Source: Ferrimonas balearica DSM 9799
GTDB taxonomy: Bacteria; Pseudomonadota; Gammaproteobacteria; Enterobacterales; Shewanellaceae
DNA: 64,000 nt
Direction of reading: 5' to 3'
NCBI RefSeq assembly: GCF_000148645.1
Contig: NC_014541.1
Location: 2,069,139-2,133,138, forward strand
Shown here: positions 15,008 through 63,753 of the stretch, piece by piece
Layout: each line of letters begins with the position of its first letter
Position numbering within the stretch: position 1 is the stretch's first letter
Translations under genes and position numbers: made by a program
The notes under the pieces: generated by a model
The model's input: only the letters and a program-made list of their open reading frames with translations
The model's database searches: none
Told to the model about the DNA's origin: nothing

Positions 15008-16234
15008 GTGTTAAACAGAGTTTGGGGCGGCTTCTTTCTGCTGTCTGGATTGGCGGCGCTTATGCAGTGGTACGGCGGCAACGATGCCATCTTTGCCACC
15101 CTGATAGAGCAGGTGATGTCGATGGCCAAACTGGCGGTGGAGATCGCCATTGGCCTGGCCGGCATCATGGCCCTGTGGATGGGCTTGCTGAAGATCGCTG
15201 AACATTCCGGGCTGACGGATAAACTGGCGCGCTGGCTGTCTCCGCTGCTGCATCGGTTGATGCCGGAGGTGCCCAAGGGCGACCCCGCCTTTGGTGCGAT
15301 CACCATGAACCTGTCGGCCAATGTGCTTGGCCTGGATAATGCCGCCACGCCCATGGGGCTGCGGGCCATGAAGGCGCTGCAGCGCCTTAACCCCAGGCCG
15401 GATACCGCCAGTAACGCGCAAATCCTGTTCCTGGTGCTGAATACCTCCTCCGTCACCCTGTTTCCCATTGCGGTCCTGCTGTACCGGGCGCAACAGGGAG
15501 CTGCCAACCCCGCGGAGGTGTTTGTCCCCATTCTGTTGGCCACCACGGCCTCCACCCTGGCGGGATTGCTTTGTGTGGCAGCCGTACAGCGCATCAATCT
15601 GCTGAATCGGGTGGTGTTGCTCTGGGCAGCGGCCATCGTCGGCCTGCTGATGGCGCTGTTGGCCACCGTAGCCGGATACAGCGCGCAGCAACTGCAGGGA
15701 TTTTCCGTATTCTGGGGCAATGCGGCGCTCTGTGCCTTTATCGGCATCATTCTGGCCAGCGGGTACTGGCGCGGCGTTGCGGTGTTTGACCGCTTTGTCG
15801 AGGGGGCGAAAGAGGGGTTTCACACCACCGTCAGCATCGCGCCTTACTTGCTGGCGATGCTGGTGGCCATCGGGGCACTGCGCGGTTCCGGCGCGTTGGA
15901 ACTGTTTCTCGATGGGATCCGAAGCGTGGTGTTGGTACTGGGGTGGGATGGGCGCTTTGTCGATGCGCTGCCAACGGCGTTGATGAAACCGTTTAGTGGC
16001 TCCGGCGCCCGGGCAATGATGCTGGAAACCATGAGCAGCCACGGCGTTGATTCGTTTGCCGGTCGGTTGGCTGCCTTGTTCCAGGGCTCAACGGAAACCA
16101 CCTTCTACGTTCTTGCGGTCTATTTTGGCGGGGTGGGCATTCGCCACACCCGCCATGCCATTCCGTGTGGTTTGGCAGCGGACCTGGCCGGCATTCTGGC
16201 GGCCATTGCCGTTGCCTATTGGTTCTTTGGCTGA
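15008..16234 (+). CDS. SpmA-SpmB fusion, nucleoside-recognition (Gate) membrane protein
   Basis: A 408-residue polytopic membrane protein. The first ~200 residues match the SpmA pattern ([21 protein letters not shown] near 98), and the second half matches SpmB ([14 protein letters not shown] near 328, [17 protein letters not shown] near 358). In Bacilli these are separate spore-maturation proteins with Gate domains. Fused forms are common in non-sporulating proteobacteria, where the substrate is unknown. The GTG at 15008 follows GAGG by several bases. Inserted between rsmF and letB, and convergent with letB. Confidence 0.88.
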
Positions 16235-16238
16235 GTGT

Positions 16239-18830
16239 TCAGAAACGCGGCTGCCAGTCCAACCAATCCGCTTTGGGACGCTCGGCCAGCTGGAACCGGG
16301 CACCGTTATCCAGCACGTCGCTGTCGGCCTGTTCGGTGGCAAAGGCGATACCACCGATCAGCAGGGTTTCCAGTGACTCCGCAGCCACCTGAGCGCCGCT
16401 GAACCAGCCCACATCCACGTAGAGACCCGATGCGTTCCAGAACTGGCTGGTGCGATTGACCAGGTGCTGGTAGCGCGGGTCAAACTGCACTTCGATGTCC
16501 ACCGAGGCGCCATCCTCCGCCAGCCGGGTGTGAACCACTTCCCCCACCTTCATCTGGCGGTAGAGCACCGGGCTGCCGATCTTCAGTGAGCCCAGTCGGG
16601 ACTGATTCAGCACCAGGCGCAGGCCATCGTCGTAGGGCAGCAGCAGAGGGGTATCCTGCAACAGCGTAAAGTGATCCTCGCGACTGCCGGATTGGCCGGG
16701 CAGGGCGGCGATGTAGTTGCCGGTAAGCAGGGTATCCAGATTCTTGGCGCCGGCCAGACTGACATCGGCGCTGACCAGATAGAAACGGGCATCGTTACGC
16801 AGGAAGTGGGTTTGCCACTTGGGCGCCAGACTGGCCTTCACGGTCTGGTGTTGCAGGTCATCACTGAGGGTGACACTGTCGACCTGACCAATGGTGTGGC
16901 CCAGATAACGGATGGCGGCATTTCGTTCTAACCGGACTTTGGCCGGGGCGTAAAGGGTCAGCTCGACGCTGGGTTCAATGGCGGATTGGCGGTCAGGGAA
17001 GATCCGCAGGTCGGCTTCGGCAGCGCCCTCCAACTGGTCAAAGCCGAGACCGCCACGCAGCAACTGCGGCAAGGGACCGGCTTCAATGGAAACGCCTGCC
17101 AGCGACCCTTCCACCTTGATGGGGCTCTGGTGCCAGAAACGAGCCCGCTGATCGACCAACTGACGATAGGCTGGCTGAACCGCCAGTTTCACCGCGAATC
17201 CGTCGCCCTGAAGGCCGATATCAGCCACCTTGCCAACTTCCAGCTCACGGTAGTAGAGCGGGGCGCCGAGGGTCAGCCCCTTCAGCTCATGGGCAAACAG
17301 AGTGACAGTAACGGCAGGGCCTTCCAGCGCCTGCTGGCGATTCGGGAAGACGGTAAAGACCTTGTCTGTCGATGCGGCGTCGCCCTCACCACTGCTGAAA
17401 CTGATGCCACCCTTTATCAGATTGGCCAGCGGTGCTGCCTGCACTTTGATGCCGGACAGGTCGGCTTCCACGGCGACACCACTGTGCAGCCAGAAGCGGG
17501 ATTGTTCCTTAACCAACTGGTCATAGGGCTGGCTGACCCAGGCGGTGGCTTCGATGCCGTCATCGGTCAGTGCCATTTGCAGCACTTCGCCAACCGGGAA
17601 ACCGCGATAGAGCAGGGGGGCGCCGATGGAGAGGCCGGTGGCGTCGCTTTGACTGAGGTGGATTAATCGCCCCTGGCCGGGGTTCAGGGGGCGGGTATCA
17701 TCCAGTTGGAACTGGTCTGAAAACGCTCCCTGGCCGGGCAGCAGAGCGATGAAGTCGCCAAAGATCAGGGTGTCCAGATGCTTCACCCCATCCAGCGCCA
17801 ACTCGGCACCGGCGCGCCAGAAACGGCTGCCAGCGGTAAACAGGTGACGGTATTCACCGTTGATGCGGGCATTAAGAACGACACCGGATTCGGTCAGGGC
17901 GATGTGGTTGATGGCGCCCAGTTTCAGTCCCCGATGTTGAATTGGCGTGCCAACGCGAAGCCCTTCCGCGTGTTCGGCGGTGAATTCAATGTCAAAGCTG
18001 GGTTGCGCTTCATCAGCATTGGCGTGCAAGCGATACAGGTCACCGGATCGGGCTTCTTCACCTTCCGCCGGAGAGGAGAAACTGATGCCACCGGCCAGCA
18101 GCGTCGCCAGACTGTCGAGCTCCACGTTGATGCCGTCCAGGCCGGCCTGAACCCGGGCACCGGAAAGATTCCAGAAGCGGCTGTTATTGCGTACCAGGCT
18201 GCGGTACTTCGCCTCAATCGCTGCGGTGAGGCGGACTTTCAGTGTGTCCTGCTCCAGCTCGTACTTGATGATCTGGCCCACCTGAATCTGGTGGAAGTAG
18301 ACGCCACTGCCCACATCCAGCGAGCCGCGCCGATCCGCCAGCAGCTCAATGGTCAGGCTGCCATTCTGGGCCGCTGCCAGAGGCGCATCGAAACTGCCTT
18401 CAAAGCGGGTACGACGGGAGCCTTCGCCGGGGGACATGGTGATGTAGTTGCCACTGAACAAGGCATCCAGTCCTTCGATACCGGTCAGGGAGGCTTTGGG
18501 AGTCACCAGCCAGAATTGGGTGCCTCGGCGCAGTAGGTCGTCTACCTGGTGGCTCATCTTAACGGTGACGGTGACACCGCCTTCTTCGTTAAGCTCAACC
18601 TGGTTAACCTGGCCAACCACCAGGCCCTGGTAACGCACCAGGGTTTTATTGGCTTCAATGCCATTGGCAGAAGGGAACTGAATCTCGATGTCGGTGCCAC
18701 GTTCGCGAACGTAAGAGGCGAGCAGCCACGCTCCCAGCAGGAACGCGGTAATGGGCAGAATCCAGATCGGAGAGAGCAGCTTCTTCTTAGCGACTTTCGG
18801 TGTCTTGGTGGCGGTCATGGAACTCTTCAC
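16239..18830 (-). CDS. letB: LetB, seven-MCE-domain periplasmic lipid tunnel
   Basis: An 863-residue protein with one N-terminal membrane anchor (about residues 22-40) and seven successive MCE domains, recognisable by repeats such as GLVVGQV, QIQVGQI, GLKLGAI, GFPVGEV, ELEVGKV, GHTIGQV and QMKVGEV. E. coli LetB (YebT, 877 residues) has the same number and stacks into a tube that spans the periplasm for phospholipid movement. An alternative start is the ATG at 18818. It overlaps the second letA half by 44 bases, so translation is likely coupled, and ends 5 bases from the convergent SpmA-SpmB gene. Confidence 0.95.
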   Translation of the reverse strand: MKSSMTATKTPKVAKKKLLSPIWILPITAFLLGAWLLASYVRERGTDIEIQFPSANGIEANKTLVRYQGLVVGQVNQVELNEEGGVTVTVKMSHQVDDLLRRGTQFWLVTPKASLTGIEGLDALFSGNYITMSPGEGSRRTRFEGSFDAPLAAAQNGSLTIELLADRRGSLDVGSGVYFHQIQVGQIIKYELEQDTLKVRLTAAIEAKYRSLVRNNSRFWNLSGARVQAGLDGINVELDSLATLLAGGISFSSPAEGEEARSGDLYRLHANADEAQPSFDIEFTAEHAEGLRVGTPIQHRGLKLGAINHIALTESGVVLNARINGEYRHLFTAGSRFWRAGAELALDGVKHLDTLIFGDFIALLPGQGAFSDQFQLDDTRPLNPGQGRLIHLSQSDATGLSIGAPLLYRGFPVGEVLQMALTDDGIEATAWVSQPYDQLVKEQSRFWLHSGVAVEADLSGIKVQAAPLANLIKGGISFSSGEGDAASTDKVFTVFPNRQQALEGPAVTVTLFAHELKGLTLGAPLYYRELEVGKVADIGLQGDGFAVKLAVQPAYRQLVDQRARFWHQSPIKVEGSLAGVSIEAGPLPQLLRGGLGFDQLEGAAEADLRIFPDRQSAIEPSVELTLYAPAKVRLERNAAIRYLGHTIGQVDSVTLSDDLQHQTVKASLAPKWQTHFLRNDARFYLVSADVSLAGAKNLDTLLTGNYIAALPGQSGSREDHFTLLQDTPLLLPYDDGLRLVLNQSRLGSLKIGSPVLYRQMKVGEVVHTRLAEDGASVDIEVQFDPRYQHLVNRTSQFWNASGLYVDVGWFSGAQVAAESLETLLIGGIAFATEQADSDVLDNGARFQLAERPKADWLDWQPRF

Positions 18831-56788: not shown

Positions 56789-56805
56789 AAGCTGTTAGCT
56801 TAGAA
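56769..56805. repeat. 15-bp tandem repeat at the gpx/fabA junction
   Basis: GAAGCTGTTAGCTTA occurs twice in direct succession (from 56772) and a third partial copy follows. The first copy contains the peroxidase stop codon and the boundary of the last copy supplies the fabA stop. Confidence 0.8.
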
Positions 56806-57339
56806 GCTGGAAGTGTCCTGGAACACGCCCACTTTCAGGTCGGTCGCGGTGTAGATTTCGCGGCCGTCCACTGACAGGGTGGCGTCAGCCAGACCCATGA
56901 TCAGTTTACGGTGAATGGTGCGCTTGAGGTGGATATGGTAAGTCACCTTCTTCGCCTCAGGCAGCACCTGGCCGGTAAATTTCACTTCACCGACACCCAG
57001 AGCACGTCCCTTGCCTTTGGCCCCTTGCCAGGCCAGGAAGAAACCCACCAGTTGCCACATCGCATCGAGGCCGAGACAGCCCGGCATCACCGGATCGGAC
57101 TCAAAGTGGCAGTCAAAAAACCACAGGCTGGGGTCGATATCCAGTTCGGCGATGATTTCGCCTTTACCGTATTTGCCGCCATGCTCATTGATGGTGGAGA
57201 TGCGATCCAGCATCAACATGTTGTCTTTAGGCAGACGCGGCGCGTCTTCCCCAAACAGGCGGCCGTGACCGCTTTCAACCAGCGCCTCCTTGTCGTACTC
57301 AGAGGCGTTGATGGGTTCTAATTTTTCTGCCACTTGCAT
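56800..57339 (-). CDS. fabA: 3-hydroxydecanoyl-ACP dehydratase/isomerase
   Basis: Dehydrates 3-hydroxyacyl-ACP and isomerises trans-2- to cis-3-decenoyl-ACP, the branch point of unsaturated fatty acid synthesis. The hot-dog fold catalytic segment [25 protein letters not shown] (about 75-99) holds the active His and Asp. [17 protein letters not shown] near 115 and [11 protein letters not shown] at the end are near-identical to E. coli. Length 179 (E. coli 172, shorter at the N-terminus). An open frame continues upstream, but ATG 57339 is the only suitable start. Control region with FadR- and FabR-like operators precedes it. Confidence 0.97.
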
Positions 57340-57374
57340 CGTTGTAAATCTGCTTTGCTTCCAAAGGAGCAACC

Positions 57375-57403: not shown

Positions 57404-57415
57404 CTCCGATCAGCT
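57399..57415 (-). promoter_or_regulatory. FadR-type activator site of fabA
   Basis: AGCTGATCGGAGTTGTT on the minus strand differs at two positions from the E. coli fabA FadR site as I recall it, and overlaps the -35 in the same way. It also overlaps the lonH stop codon region. Confidence 0.65.
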
Positions 57416-59158
57416 AAAACCGAACAGACGTTTCCAGAAGGGGCGGCGCTCGGGCTCATCGTTGCCGGCCATCTGGTCCAGTCTTTCCTGTACCAATCCG
57501 TAAAGCGTGCCGTCTGGGAAGCGGTTATCCTTATCGGGCTCACCCACTTCACAGCCGGTCAAAAGCGCCAGCGCTTCCTCTACATTGTCGACTTGAAACA
57601 GGTGGAACTGTCCGGATTCAACCGCTTCGATAACATCATCGCTCAAATTCAGCTGACGAGTGTTTGCTCTAGGCAGGATCACGCCCTGGCTTCCGGTGAG
57701 GCCACGGTAGCGACAAACGTGGAAGAAGCCTTCGATCTTCTCGTTTATCCCACCAATTGCCTGCACATTGCCAAACTGGTCGATCGCTCCGGTGAGCGCC
57801 AGTCCCTGCTTTACAGGGGCTTCGGCAATGGTGGAGATCAGGCTGCAGTATTCTGCCAACGACGCGCTGTCACCATCGATGGTCTGGTAGGACTGCTCAA
57901 AAACGATGTTGGCGCTCAGGTGGAGCGGCTCATCCTGGCCAAAGATTCGGTAGAGGCAGGCGGACAGGATCATCATCCCTTTGGCGTGGATGTTGCCACC
58001 GAGCTCGGACTTCCGCTCAATGTCCGCAACCTCACCGTCGCCGTAGTGCACGGATACGGTAATGCGTGCCGGCTCGCCGTAGCTGTGGCCACAATAATCC
58101 ACTACGGTCAGGCCGTTAATCTGGCCAACCTTTTCGCCTTCGGTATCGACACGAACCAGCGCCTCTTCGACGTTGCGTTGAGCGTAGATCTCGACACTGT
58201 TATGGCGATGTCGCTGCTGCTTCAGCGCATCCTGCACCCGTTCGGAGGTGATGGGGCCTTCGCTTTCGCATTGTCCCAACAGCAAACCCATTTCGTGCCA
58301 GGCCAGTGTCAATCTGCCCTGGTGTTCACAGGAGCGACTGGCGTGGCGGGCGAGGGCAGTCAGCGCCCCATTCTCCAGTCGTCGACCGGTGTAGAGCAAT
58401 GACACTTGTTGTGCCGACGCTCCCCAGAGTTGGGCGTCCTCATCGGAATCGACAAACCACTCGGGTTGGGCTTCCGCCATCAGGCTGAACAGGTCGGTGA
58501 AGTTGGGGTCCAGTGCGTCGAGGGTGTCATAGTCGAGCACATCGCCGAGGATAACCACCTTGCAGCAGACCGGGATCTGAATGGGAGAGCCACTGAAGGC
58601 GATGTAACCCCGCTTCAGCGCTTCCTTGACCATAAACCAGCGGCTGGGCTTCTGCAGCAGTCCTTCGGCCGGGATCACCAACACCTCGGAGCTGGCCAAC
58701 AGCCCTGCGTGATAGGCGCCGCTTTTGTCGACGCTTCCCAGCATCGTGTTGCGGGACAGGGGTTGATCTACGAACCGGAGTGGCGTCAGTTCCACCAATG
58801 CGGAAAGGGTTGCCTCGTCTGGAATGGCTTCGCCGTTGGGCAGTGTCCGCTTGGCGAACTGTTCCGCCGTGAGCTTGACCAGAGCTTGCGCTTCACCGTT
58901 AACCACGGACGCCAATATACCCGGGCTGACCTGCAACGGTTGTTGCTGGTGCAGGGCTTCGATCAGTGCTTCACCGTCAAAGCCTGGGAAGGCGGTGACA
59001 AAAAGGTGCTGGTTACTGCAGCGGCGAAACAGAGACCAGGCGCTAACGCACCGCTCCTGACCCAGCATCCAGGGGCTGGTGTGTGGGGCAGTGGCGTCGG
59101 GATCAAGTTGAGGGTAGTGCGGCTTAAGTGCCGACGGGGCCAAGCGCAATTGGGGCAA
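57410..59158 (-). CDS. ycbZ: Lon-family putative ATP-independent protease (LonH/YcbZ)
   Basis: A 582-residue protein (E. coli YcbZ 586) with a Lon proteolytic domain at the C-terminus: catalytic serine in [11 protein letters not shown] near 457, lysine in [11 protein letters not shown] near 500. [17 protein letters not shown] lies near 405. The N-terminal part is a degenerate AAA-like region. The TTG at 59158 is proposed as start: GGAGAG lies about 6 bases upstream and the length then fits the family, while the frame upstream is unlike any homologue. Upstream of fabA as in E. coli. Confidence 0.9.
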
Positions 59159-59293
59159 GGGTGGCTCTCCGGAAAAAAAACAGTCCGCCACTATACCATA
59201 GCGGCTGTAGGACAGCCCGGATGGCGGCCTGAATGTTGGCCAACCCCCTTTGGTTAAATGACAAAGTGTGGGTTTAAGTGCGATTTTTATGGG

Positions 59294-59315
59294 ATACTGT
59301 ATGGGCATACAGTAT
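59294..59315 (+). promoter_or_regulatory. LexA (SOS) box of the first tyrosine recombinase
   Basis: The core TACTGTATGGGCATACAGTA has CTGT-N8-ACAG and agrees with the E. coli consensus in both arms. It is a perfect 10-bp inverted repeat with two central bases. It ends 12 bases before the ATG and overlaps a possible -10 (GATACT), so LexA should repress this gene. Confidence 0.85.
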
Positions 59316-59326
59316 TGGGTAAAACT

Positions 59327-60625
59327 ATGACCTCTGACCGTCCACCAGCGCTGCCTCTGTTCGATACCTTGCGACACTTTGAGTCCAGTAATCCCTTCAT
59401 TAATCAGCATCTGGCTTCGTTGGTTTGCCAGGGTATTGATGACGCATCCCTGAGTTATGAGCACGCCCTCGATTTTCTGGTGGAGCAGCGCCATAACGAG
59501 AACAATTACAAATCACACCGCAGTGAACTCACCACTTTTTTGCACTGGTGTTGGTGCGAAGAGGGCGTGTCGTTGCAGCAGGTGGATCGTCGCCTTCTCG
59601 TGCGCTATCTGGATTATTGCCAGTCACCACCTCCAGCGTTGATTGGCTATCGGAACGTGGCACAGTTTCTGGCAGCCAAAGGGGAAACCGAACGTCGACC
59701 TAATCCAAACTGGCGTCCGTTCTTGGGGCGGATGGAGATGGGGGAAAAACTGCCTTATCGGCTTAGTGTTTCTGCCATCAAGACCAAGCTTGCACTGCTT
59801 TCTGCCTTCTTTACTTACCTCAATGATGTCGAATACACCGACCGTAATCCGGCGGCCCTGTTACTCAAACGGGCAAAAGCGCGCTACGCCGGACAAAGCG
59901 GCCTGGGTGAAGAGACGCCGATGAAGGCGTTTACGGAACTGCAGTGGTCGTACGTACTGGGGGCCGCGACACGATTGGCCAATGAGCAACCGGAACAGTA
60001 CGAGCGCACACTGTTTCTGGTGTCGTTGCTGTACAGCTGTTATTTGCGGGTTTCCGAAGTGTCAGCACGTCCCGGCTTCAGCCCGGTGATGGGGCAATTT
60101 CGCCGGGACAGTAAAACCGGCGTGTGGGGATTCTTTGTGCCGATGAGCAAAGGCGGTAAAAGTCGGACCGTTGCGCTGTCCGATGCGATGCTGAACGCGC
60201 TGAAGCGATACCGGGAATATCTCGGTTTGCCCGCGATGCCGGCACCGAAGGAACTGACCCCGCTGTTTTGCCGCCACCGTGCGGCGCAGCGAGGCCGGGA
60301 TGTGGGTGAACTTAATGCCAACCTAGGTCAACGCCAAATCCGGGAGTTGGTGGATGGACTGATCTCAGTGGCCTCTCAGGACGCTGCCGCGGATGGGTTG
60401 GCGGATGATGCCAGGGAGATGGCTGAGATGACGGTGCACAGTTTGCGTCACACCGGCATCTCTCACGACATCAATCTTAACGGGCGACCTTTGTCTCACG
60501 TTCAGGCCGATGCGGGCCATGATTCCATCGATACGACCAGTCACTATTTGCACACCAGTCAGGTAGAGCGCCATCAGACCGCGAGGACCAAGCCTCTAGA
60601 CCATCTTGGGTTTGCTGCTGACTAG
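59327..60625 (+). CDS. tyrosine recombinase, SOS-controlled
   Basis: A 432-residue phage-integrase-family recombinase. Catalytic set visible: Arg in SCYLRVSEVS near 246, Lys in SKGGKSRTV near 284, HSLRHTG near 380 (HxxR), AGHDS near 407 and the nucleophile Tyr in TTSHYLH near 416. A SAM-like N-terminal DNA-binding region covers about 30-190. The gene starts just after a LexA box, an arrangement known for mobile-element and integron recombinases. It converges with a second recombinase with a 4-base stop overlap. The start at ATG 59327 excludes an upstream frame that would run through the LexA box. Confidence 0.93.
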   Translation: MTSDRPPALPLFDTLRHFESSNPFINQHLASLVCQGIDDASLSYEHALDFLVEQRHNENNYKSHRSELTTFLHWCWCEEGVSLQQVDRRLLVRYLDYCQSPPPALIGYRNVAQFLAAKGETERRPNPNWRPFLGRMEMGEKLPYRLSVSAIKTKLALLSAFFTYLNDVEYTDRNPAALLLKRAKARYAGQSGLGEETPMKAFTELQWSYVLGAATRLANEQPEQYERTLFLVSLLYSCYLRVSEVSARPGFSPVMGQFRRDSKTGVWGFFVPMSKGGKSRTVALSDAMLNALKRYREYLGLPAMPAPKELTPLFCRHRAAQRGRDVGELNANLGQRQIRELVDGLISVASQDAAADGLADDAREMAEMTVHSLRHTGISHDINLNGRPLSHVQADAGHDSIDTTSHYLHTSQVERHQTARTKPLDHLGFAAD

Positions 60626-61668
60626 TAGAGTCCCTGACCCGGGTGGCTGTTGAAGTGCCCAAGGTCGTCCAGATAGAGCATCAGGGTTTTGGGATCACGG
60701 TGCCCGGAGATCTTCATGACTTCACTGATCGGCGCGCCTTTGAGCAGCGCCGAATCGATAAAGCCCCGACGCAAGCTGTGTCCGGATACGCCGCCGTGGC
60801 TTGCCTCCATGCCAATTCCCTGAGCCCTTTTCATAATGATTCGGGCAACGGAGCTGGGGTGCAGAGGTTTTGCTAACGGCTGGCGATTGCGGTTTGCACG
60901 GCGGAACAGCGGGCCCTGTTGGGCGCCAAGTCGCATCATATAGCGTTGCAACAAGGCAACCGGGCAGCGGCTGGGATCCTGGCCCGCTACAATCGGCACC
61001 TGACTGAATTCACTGCGTCGCTTTCGGGTTTCGAAACCCAGGTTGGCGCCATTAGGGTAGAGCCGAACATCTTCAATCTTGAGAGAAGCGAGGTCACTCA
61101 CCCGCAGTGCGCCGGCAAAGCCAACCGCCAGTAGCGTCTTGTCTCTCAGGTCGACAAATTCCTGTTCCTCCATCCGGTGCATCAACTCGGCCATCGGGTC
61201 GCTACCCAGACCTTTTGCTCGTTTCGGGCGAGTCGGCAGCAACCGAACGACACCGGCAAGGTGATCCTGAACCAGGGTGCTGGCTGCAGGATTGGGGGAT
61301 CGTCCTTGCTGAGACATCCACCATTTCAGCGTTGAGAGTCGACGACGAATGGAACGTACTGAGAGGGGAGGGCCGGAAACCAACGTGGACTGGCCATTGT
61401 GGGGATTGTAGGTCAGTCGGTTGGGACGTCCTTCACAGGCCATATGTGTCATCCACAGGCACAGGTCAGCATCGGTTGCTCGTTCTGGATTGATGCCATG
61501 CGCCTGACACCAGTAACCATACTGCCTTAGATCAGAACGTCGCGCCTGCCAGGTTTTCTCCGACAGTCGAGCTCGATGCACCTGGTCCAGCAAGGCCTGA
61601 TCGATCGAATCGACTGCGATGCTAAGCCCTTGTTTTGGCGAGATTAAAGCAGGTGCATCCGGTGTCAT
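60622..61668 (-). CDS. second tyrosine recombinase
   Basis: A 348-residue integrase-family protein. Arg in AGALRVSDLASL near 188, HSLRRGF near 299 (HxxR), SGHRDPKTLMLYLDD near 322-336 with the His and the nucleophile Tyr; the basic KRRSEF near 217 supplies the lysine. An N-terminal core-binding domain covers about 20-150. It differs clearly from the first recombinase, so the pair is not a simple duplication. No good ribosome site precedes the ATG. The pair lies between lonH and the MatP-like gene, genes that are direct neighbours in E. coli. Confidence 0.92.
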   Translation of the reverse strand: MTPDAPALISPKQGLSIAVDSIDQALLDQVHRARLSEKTWQARRSDLRQYGYWCQAHGINPERATDADLCLWMTHMACEGRPNRLTYNPHNGQSTLVSGPPLSVRSIRRRLSTLKWWMSQQGRSPNPAASTLVQDHLAGVVRLLPTRPKRAKGLGSDPMAELMHRMEEQEFVDLRDKTLLAVGFAGALRVSDLASLKIEDVRLYPNGANLGFETRKRRSEFSQVPIVAGQDPSRCPVALLQRYMMRLGAQQGPLFRRANRNRQPLAKPLHPSSVARIIMKRAQGIGMEASHGGVSGHSLRRGFIDSALLKGAPISEVMKISGHRDPKTLMLYLDDLGHFNSHPGQGLY

Positions 61669-61726: not shown

Positions 61727-61760
61727 ATTAGATCAACTAACGGCAATTATCTGATCTAAT
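61727..61760. repeat. 9-bp inverted repeat between recombinase 2 and the MatP-like gene
   Basis: ATTAGATCA and TGATCTAAT are separated by 16 bases. The spacing suits two protomers on one DNA face more than an RNA hairpin. It could be an operator of the second recombinase or a recombination half-site pair. Confidence 0.5.
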
Positions 61761-61811: not shown

Positions 61812-62216
61812 TCAGAAATCGGTGTTTTCGAGCTCTCGAGCCATCCAACAGATGGTTTCAGAGTAGGAGTCCAGCTGGTATTGCTGGCGAATCTTGTCGA
61901 GGGCAGCCAGTGCATCGGCATCGAGATCGATGGCTTTCTTAGCCCGGCTTTGACGATGGAGATGGGTGCTGTAGCGGCGGCGTAACATAGGAAGACGCCC
62001 AGCGCCGAAGGTGAGCTCAATAAACTCCGTCAATTCTTGCTCTAAGGTGCGGTCGAATTCCGCTTCCCGCGCTCGCCATTGTGGCATCTGCTGTTCTCGG
62101 ATGCGCAAGCGCCAGTTGTCGGGGTCGGCCAGACTGGCGTAACGAACCAGGAATGGCGATGAACGGGTAATCAGAAACTCGACGAAATCACAGGTGATGG
62201 GAAGCGGGCGGGCCAT
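61812..62216 (-). CDS. MatP-like ribbon-helix-helix DNA-binding protein
   Basis: A 134-residue protein. The C-terminal part RAKKAIDLDADALAALDKI then SYSETICWMARELEN reads like the ribbon-helix-helix of E. coli MatP (KKSIDL, 19 residues, SETIVQLIEDAEN), with 20 residues in the spacer here. The preceding RRR/His-rich stretch also corresponds. The N-terminal ~75 residues are helical but not obviously MatP. MatP organises the Ter macrodomain; its gene adjoins ycbZ in E. coli and the same order is seen here if the two recombinases are ignored. A weak or absent ribosome site precedes the ATG. Could instead be an unrelated RHH regulator of the element. Confidence 0.55.
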   Translation of the reverse strand: MARPLPITCDFVEFLITRSSPFLVRYASLADPDNWRLRIREQQMPQWRAREAEFDRTLEQELTEFIELTFGAGRLPMLRRRYSTHLHRQSRAKKAIDLDADALAALDKIRQQYQLDSYSETICWMARELENTDF

Positions 62217-63033: not shown

Positions 63034-63059
63034 ATGCCGATAATCCTAATTATCGGCAT
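63034..63059. repeat. perfect 11-bp hairpin carrying the GCCGATAAT word
   Basis: ATGCCGATAAT and ATTATCGGCAT flank CCTA. No T-tail, so it is not an ordinary terminator. The same word GCCGATAATCC recurs at 63401-63411 and, inverted, at 63461-63471, with a near copy at 63572. Confidence 0.65.
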
Positions 63060-63725
63060 TACGCTGTCGATGGCCTGAGTTGTTTGATTCTACTGGACGC
63101 CAGAACCTTAACGAGGCGGTTCAAAACTGATTCTGCAAAGCAAGTGACGGTCACCAGCGTTGTTAATCCCATCAGGCTCGCAGCCAATAGCGATTCTTAA
63201 AACTGGCACTGCTGGAAACATCCAACCTTCGATTGGTCAGTGTGGATTGCCGACCTAGCCAGGTACAGTTTGGCGTAGCCGTTTTTCCTATAACTAGACT
63301 CGGCTACGCAGGACGGTCATCAGCGGACTCCGACACAGACCACGACACGTAACGGCAGGCATCCTTGAGTTCACACCTCGAGGAATATTTATTTGGCTCG
63401 GCCGATAATCCGGATTGAATGTCGGAGCGTCAGTCCAGGACTCAAAGCGCGTACGGCAATGGATTATCGGCACCGGTTGGGTTGATCGTTCGCATGCAAC
63501 CATCCAGAAATGAAGTCGGCTTGATGCGAATCGCCACAGCAACCGTTAGGATGGTTTTGGAACCAGAGGCTGCCGATAAACTAAGTGCTCAGTGATGATA
63601 GACGTAAAGTTGCAATCCGTTGTTATGCAGACCAACGCGAGAATCACGAAGCAACGCAGGAACCCTGAACGGTCAAATTCCGTACTAAGCCCCAAACCCT
63701 GACCCGGGATTCAATCTGATACTAC

Positions 63726-63753
63726 ACTGCGCACAATGTATATTATGTTAAAT
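63726..63753 (+). other. dif site (XerC/XerD chromosome dimer resolution site)
   Basis: Left arm ACTGCGCACAA, centre TGTATA, right arm TTATGTTAAAT. The centre and the XerD arm are identical to E. coli dif; the XerC arm differs at three of eleven positions. Here XerCD recombine sister chromosomes under control of FtsK, marking the replication terminus. It could alternatively be an arm of an element integrated by XerCD, but no second dif-like site was found in the window. Confidence 0.92.

Follow-up and report, generated by a model that had tools for sequence, protein, structure and literature searches.

The 28-mer ACTGCGCACAATGTATATTATGTTAAAT, located on the forward strand at positions 63726-63753 of the analysed Ferrimonas balearica DSM 9799 stretch (64,000 nucleotides, C1:2069139-2133138, hereafter the window), is almost certainly the dif site of the chromosome, as judged from its letters and its surroundings. 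It is accompanied by two tyrosine recombinase genes, YrecA and YrecB, which lie between lonH and dif and encode neither XerC nor XerD. It appears probable that this replication terminus combines dif with self-contained Xer-like modules, in which each recombinase would be paired with a palindromic site of its own. The dif itself is an ordinary and expected one. Neither the two recombinases nor their palindromes had been mentioned in the earlier note, which was made on this DNA from the sequence alone.

The site shows the dif-type architecture: an 11-bp XerC arm (63726-63736), the 6-bp centre TGTATA (63737-63742) and the conserved 11-bp XerD arm TTATGTTAAAT (63743-63753). On the chromosome it occupies C1:2132864-2132891. 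When both strands of the whole 4,279,159-base single-contig chromosome were searched with up to three mismatches, this was the only match; the reversed pattern, used as a control under the same conditions, gave none. At the same threshold 100 shuffles of the window did not yield any match, and no other site with up to seven mismatches of the 24-base core was found in the window or in the stretches L059, L042 and L060. The earlier note had recognised a chromosomal dif here by its TGTATA centre and had proposed a genome-wide search for other 28-mers with three or fewer mismatches; the 28-mer was found where it had been placed, it is unique in the chromosome, and at this threshold the search uncovered neither a further copy nor a second, better dif. 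The dif listed for S. oneidensis MR-1 in the accessible part of PMC2731167 has the same 28 letters. Among 60 relatives, 53 carry one such site each and 7 carry none (up to two mismatches in the last 24 bases). Variation was observed in the XerD arm, the best-conserved arm of dif: a T-to-G change, which gives TTATGGTAAAT, is present in 7 of 14 Ferrimonas and in G024 of the same family, and TTATGGTAAAA was seen in one (variant loci L018, L022, L023, L025, L026, L027 and L030); F. balearica does not have this change.

The position of the site agrees with that of a terminus. It stands 49.8% of the way round the circle from dnaA, the frames that open the contig being those which we take to be dnaA, dnaN, recF and gyrB. 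GC skew is positive in all 19 sampled 20-kb bins on the left of the dif bin and negative in 18 of the 19 on the right, the exception being bin 2568000 (+0.011). The likelihood change point of the skew, calculated on a continuous 400 kb, falls 958 bp from dif, and its 2-unit interval (2131594-2135446) contains dif (2132864). Furthermore, over 400 kb the KOPS-type motif GGGNAGGG is distributed 46:4 to the left of dif and 4:50 to the right of it, in a test which assumes an E. coli-type motif, and its polarity flips between 2131539 and 2133630, an interval of about 2 kb around dif. Both partner recombinases are encoded, XerC (357 bits against the NCBIfam equivalog cut-off of 335.15) and XerD (388.9 bits against 329.6). 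The claim that the window ends at the replication terminus was therefore confirmed by the location of dif opposite to dnaA, at the GC-skew switch and between converging KOPS, and the GC skew, which had been suggested as a check, changes its sign around dif. Uniqueness, position, the skew and KOPS switch, the identity with the S. oneidensis site and the presence of XerC and XerD together make the dif assignment as firm as a sequence permits.

The genes next to these elements were also compared. The fabA gene (~56800-57342, complementary strand) and the lonH-type protease gene (listed ORF 57410-59494, complementary strand) are synteny partners of dif in Ferrimonas, and the measured positions agree with the earlier placement of fabA-lonH within about 7 kb of dif. 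According to tblastn all 14 Ferrimonas loci have both genes near dif, with fabA at a distance of 3.7-10.5 kb; none of the six dif loci of other genera that gave hits shows this arrangement, and a seventh locus gave no hit whatever. The neighbourhood of fabA-lonH and dif is a genus-level arrangement and not special to the F. balearica strain. In E. coli matP adjoins fabA; an involvement of MatP through fabA was considered and rejected, since PF06303 is absent. A small ORF of 134 amino acids (61812-62216, complementary strand), which adjoins YrecB in part of the Ferrimonas, belongs to no Pfam or NCBIfam family and has one weak PHROG match (E 0.0015) of unknown function.

YrecA (59258-60625, forward strand, PF00589) probably begins at 59327, a start which gives 432 amino acids and fits the homologues better than the listed ORF of 455. 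It reaches 48-51 bits and YrecB 48-49 bits against the XerC/XerD equivalog cut-off of about 330, and YrecA is also below the cut-offs of XerS (20 against 267 bits) and XerA. It possesses the complete catalytic set of tyrosine recombinases: R264, K298, H394, R397, H421 and Y430 are invariant in 31 aligned proteins, and all 21 family members whose sequence was usable retain the catalytic residues (G043 and G046 have no usable frame). Structure prediction from a 14-row alignment reached a mean pLDDT of 47.7, the PDB search returned one marginal hit, and a contig scan with YrecA returned one locus with 24% identity. A YrecA match (E <= 0.001) was detected in 76 of 96 family genomes, in two of them with only 33-34% identity and in one only weakly. 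The module is not essential, because 20 of the 96 genomes have no match, one has a weak one, and a few copies contain stop codons.

Where the gene and dif are on the same contig, they are always close to each other: all 72 pairs lie within 28.5 kb and 33 of them within 210 bp. For this count 78 genomes were entered (74 belonging to the family and 4 to other families), five having gene and dif on different contigs and one having no dif; G016 (gene in pieces), G116 (weak hits only) and second hits per genome were left out. The gene points at dif in 68 of the 72, which is weaker evidence than the distance, as genes on the leading strand are oriented towards the terminus in any case. At the order level 46 genomes contain a YrecA homologue (E <= 1e-30), and again all 27 same-contig pairs, four of which are also among the 72, lie within 31.5 kb, 14 of them within 310 bp; in the remaining genomes homologue and dif are on different contigs (9) or canonical dif is lacking (10). 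In an Aeromonas caviae record dif follows the homologue by about 100 bp. Among the best 45 rows of an 11-group comparison, whose loci were mostly chosen for having dif and YrecA on one contig and are hence not independent, a tyrosine recombinase is the sole gene found near dif in all 11 groups. Among the titles and abstract openings listed from an open-access collection, we did not find a report of a recombinase next to a canonical dif in this group of bacteria.

A tree built from 24 YrecA proteins groups the sequences of Ferrimonas, of the Shewanella type and of the Aeromonas type into one clade each, and YrecA and GyrB distances are correlated (r = 0.80), the GyrB tree itself not recovering Ferrimonas as one group. 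The dN/dS values are 0.02-0.08 in the seven of nine pairs that allowed a computation (dS above 2 in three of the seven). The identity to the Ferrimonas protein, 62% in the Aeromonas-type and 54% in the Shewanella-type genomes, first hinted at horizontal hopping; recent hopping was rejected, as GyrB has 76% identity in both cases and the genera stay together in the YrecA tree, but older transfers may have taken place.

Between YrecA and dif, 667 bp left of the latter, there is a perfect copy of the palindrome P_A, TGCCGATAA-TCCTAA-TTATCGGCA (63035-63058), which on sequence grounds is probably the recombination site of YrecA. It is the only match with up to three mismatches in the window (0.01 expected), and up to two mismatches allow a single copy in 804 kb of F. 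balearica (overlapping pieces, about 18% of the chromosome). Among 69 genomes with YrecA, 62 contain the motif TGCCGATAA-N6-TTATCGGCA with up to two mismatches, 55 of them perfectly (Ferrimonas 13/14; other sets 16/17, 22/27 and 11/11); in the other seven it was not found near YrecA, some of these being on short contigs. The centre of the palindrome is conserved to 39-48% and the arms to 95-100% per column, the latter partly by construction, as the motif itself was the query. The reversed motif, taken as a control, gave no match in 602 kb, and the perfect palindrome is absent from six loci of Shewanella-type genomes that have no YrecA. A search which did not use the motif was carried out on 29 loci with a YrecA orthologue and dif: within 500 bp upstream of YrecA a perfect inverted repeat was present in 21 of them, and the longest repeat was of the TGCCGATAA type in all 21. 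Palindromes are not rare in general, 11-6-11 repeats with at most one mismatch being found upstream of 69 out of 786 long open frames and of 26 out of 57 YrecA genes; it is therefore the shared arms and not the symmetry that carry the argument for P_A. Additionally, the inner ATAA-N6-TTAT and the 6-bp centre are the same as in dif.

The position of P_A relative to the gene is variable. It is upstream of YrecA in 38 of the 62 genomes, mostly within 130 bp, and downstream in 24, among them all 13 Ferrimonas that have it, where the copies sit between the YrecA stop and dif. In seven Ferrimonas the distance from dif is 21-56 bp; the F. balearica arrangement, in which P_A is separated by 667 bp from dif and by 2.4 kb from YrecA, is looser than elsewhere. 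Three extra 8-base half sites were recognised between P_A and dif (63401, 63464 and 63572; 63401-63579), against 0.045 expected from 720 kb of the same genome; they are not present in the equivalent stretch of G003 and G007.

The second recombinase, YrecB (60622-61668, complementary strand, PF00589), is convergent with YrecA. Its R, H, R, H and Y align with those of YrecA, and the lysine columns do not. It was found in 8 of 11 Ferrimonas genomes searched and, with 30-31% identity, in three of three Aeromonas-like genomes. About 60 bp upstream of its start lies P_B, AGATCAACTAA-CGGCAA-TTATCTGATCT (61730-61757), a palindrome with two mismatched pairs which is the proposed YrecB site. Arms of the AGATCA type begin 87-155 bp before the matched YrecB start in eight of eight Ferrimonas, four of which, including F. 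balearica, have P_B with two mismatches; beside the ~30% identical YrecB a different, perfect palindrome is present in all three Aeromonas-type genomes.

The resolution of chromosome dimers by dif, FtsK and XerCD is known from the E. coli literature, and in F. balearica it is supported through the anatomy. XerC would bind the left arm of dif and XerD the right one; in a chromosome dimer FtsK, guided by the converging KOPS, would bring both copies of dif side by side at the septum, and strands would be exchanged by the Xer pair in the TGTATA centre. To the left of dif there are two compact modules, YrecA with P_A and YrecB with P_B, whose palindromes have a dif-like geometry (arm, 6-bp centre, arm), and each recombinase would most likely act alone on its own symmetric site, like XerS, XerH and XerL. 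YrecA and P_A probably represent an old, mostly vertically inherited terminus module which would work beside dif. That this module serves chromosome resolution or unlinking is possible, falling just short of an evenly balanced proposition.

Relatives in which canonical dif is absent are informative in this respect. Ten order-level genomes lack it and have a YrecA homologue. In nine of them (G221, G040, G245, G233, G256, G276, G050, G181 and G186; homologues of 27-35% identity) another palindrome, GTCCRATA-N8-TATYGGAC, is found with up to two mismatches and begins 39-390 bp ahead of the matched start of the gene; as G040, G221 and the class-level locus L183 had served to define the motif, seven of the nine genomes are independent. 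The tenth, G127, has a YrecA orthologue with P_A. In G221, a single contig of 4.39 Mb, the cumulative skew was followed over a 220-kb stretch, and its maximum lies 12 kb from the module. In four f16 genomes the GTCC palindrome and canonical dif are about 60-90 bp apart, and in G050 and G186, which belong to the same genus group, no 24-mer within 500 bp of the palindrome resembles dif with fewer than eight mismatches. The GTCC palindrome is missing at five of nine diverged homologues near canonical dif, two of which carry the TGCCGATAA-type repeat instead, one with a mismatch; it is also lacking in the G243 and G343 loci. At the class level it is perfect within 1.5 kb of the homologue in one of 28 loci (L183; homologues 35-44%), and the 11-mers shared beside these homologues were not informative. 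Canonical dif (up to three mismatches) is lacking in 34 of 35 class-level genomes with a YrecA homologue, the assemblies being mostly fragmentary, and this coincidence is only suggestive. We tentatively consider it possible that a lone recombinase with a palindromic site forms a second resolution or unlinking system, which would have stood beside dif since the common ancestor and would be the sole system where canonical dif was lost. The extension of such a system over the Shewanellaceae-type, Aeromonadaceae-type and further families of the order belongs to the same joint reading and is just as tentative.

The palindromes occur in viral sequences as well. Perfect P_A was found in 65 IMG/VR stretches (some from one contig), with a YrecA relative in 26 of them and a dif of up to four mismatches in 19; the GTCC palindrome is present in 26 stretches. 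In 11 of 18 IMG/VR loci the last P_A is 717 bp from dif. In the filamentous-phage-like locus L335 a Zot-type assembly gene, a replication initiator and an HTH regulator adjoin dif, and in our reading a P_A copy overlaps the start or first codons of the replication gene. Some of the downstream P_A copies could be phage-owned, since phages carry the motif too. A second dif-like site with three mismatches, on the same strand and 11-12.5 kb from dif, was found in 4 of 96 family genomes (G003, G022, G062 and G078), a pattern expected of elements integrated at dif. In the Ferrimonas G009 a dif copy with five mismatches stands directly behind P_A, and the real dif is reached after a further 6.8 kb, which is the usual picture of integration at dif. 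YrecA relatives are present on 530 plasmid records; against 50,697 phage records YrecA gave a single weak match (26% identity over 47% of the query). The plasmid relatives L380 and L381 have no palindrome beside the gene, and L131 has a one-mismatch palindrome candidate downstream. On the Shewanella baltica plasmid pSbal01 (L130) YrecA and the palindrome stand beside ccoNOQP, an order which resembles the chromosomal terminus neighbourhood.

Elements do insert at dif in relatives, as the second copies in 4 of 96 genomes and the degenerate dif of G009 indicate, YrecA relatives reside on 530 plasmid records, and some YrecA copies contain stops. It could accordingly be supposed that only dif matters, and that YrecA and YrecB are leftover integrases, kept as the terminus tolerates insertions, with the palindromes being old attachment sites. 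We regard this as unlikely, since the YrecA tree is broadly congruent with GyrB, dN/dS is low, the catalytic residues are kept in 21 of 21 proteins, the phage records gave but one weak match, and the recombinase is the sole gene near dif in all 11 groups (among the best 45 rows, which are not independent).

An operator or hairpin RNA element controlling the recombinase or phage genes is in our opinion an improbable identity for the palindromes. It would suit the 38 of 62 genomes in which P_A precedes the start of YrecA, in most of them by no more than 130 bp, the copy over the first codons of the L335 replication gene, and the RNA fold of P_A, which is better than that of shuffles (z -3.2). 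However, 24 of the 62 genomes have P_A downstream of YrecA, which argues against a YrecA operator, P_A comes as close as 21-56 bp to dif in seven Ferrimonas, its 6-bp centre is variable and its inner ATAA/TTAT is as in dif; furthermore, no run of T follows it in the window, and one copy with up to two mismatches is present in 804 kb. Finally, the 28-mer itself might be a dif-like decoy, that is a phage or plasmid site, with the true dif elsewhere. Extra dif-like copies do exist in relatives, but the present site is unique in the genome, lies at the skew and KOPS switch and is identical to the listed S. oneidensis dif, and of 60 relatives 53 possess a single site of this kind and the other 7 none; the decoy was rejected on account of the unique site at the skew switch, and its probability is practically negligible. 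The combination of dif with YrecA/P_A and YrecB/P_B modules is the reading which we prefer.

Compared to the known systems, the F. balearica dif itself shows no difference from the dif/XerCD of Gammaproteobacteria (E. coli, S. oneidensis), with which it shares the 28 bp, the 11-6-11 structure, the terminus position, the KOPS polarity and the pair of XerC and XerD. The YrecA module resembles, as far as they are described in the accessible parts of the reports, difSL/XerS of streptococci and difH/XerH of epsilon-proteobacteria, where likewise one recombinase gene is linked to one terminus site; unlike these, it stands beside a normal XerCD/dif. According to the same parts of the reports difSL has an 11-bp centre, whereas P_A has perfect palindromic arms and a 6-bp centre. 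YrecA scores far below the XerS cut-off, and to XerH it was likened by description. In Legionella, as stated in the accessible sections of PMC9765430, the single recombinase XerL acts on a long inverted repeat and serves genomes without known XerCD, the L. pneumophila gene and site being more than 400 kb apart; XerL is also mentioned in the accessible part of PMC11472951. With the dif/XerL of Legionellales, so far as these sections describe it, the YrecA module shares the single recombinase, the long uninterrupted inverted-repeat arms and the terminus site. A kinship of YrecA to XerL, likened by description, is a lead; among plasmid-borne genes, the best matches to the G221 protein were found on Legionella plasmids (51-52%). 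As in the case of IMEX elements, relatives have elements beside dif flanked by degenerate copies, whereas YrecA/P_A looks mostly vertical, and the stretches read around the F. balearica dif did not yield a second dif-like copy. From the characteristics of single-recombinase modules, YrecA/P_A displays a symmetric site linked to the gene (as a motif only) and the terminus location; it does not replace XerCD in F. balearica, where XerC and XerD are present.

The question has a wider background. In the accessible part of their paper, Carnoy and Roten described the lack of dif/Xer in Legionellales, Colwellia psychrerythraea and Saccharophagus degradans, and left open how dimers are resolved in large-genome bacteria without dif/Xer (PMC2731167). 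For Legionellales this question was answered by XerL. If a lone recombinase with its palindrome does constitute a second system, it would explain dimer resolution in some of the large-genome bacteria reported without dif/Xer. If YrecA-type recombinases act on the palindromes, the relatives which possess both systems would offer a model for the swap of terminus systems, and the motifs would help to find dif-like sites where the dif consensus fails.

A further gene was observed repeatedly in the neighbourhood of dif. The ccoN gene of the cbb3 oxidase has its CcoN frame at 15563-17131 of the stretch L059 (C1:2135562-2137130), less than 8 kb separate ccoN from dif in six of the 14 Ferrimonas loci and also in six loci of other genera, and frames placed like ccoN recur near dif in 6 of the 11 groups.
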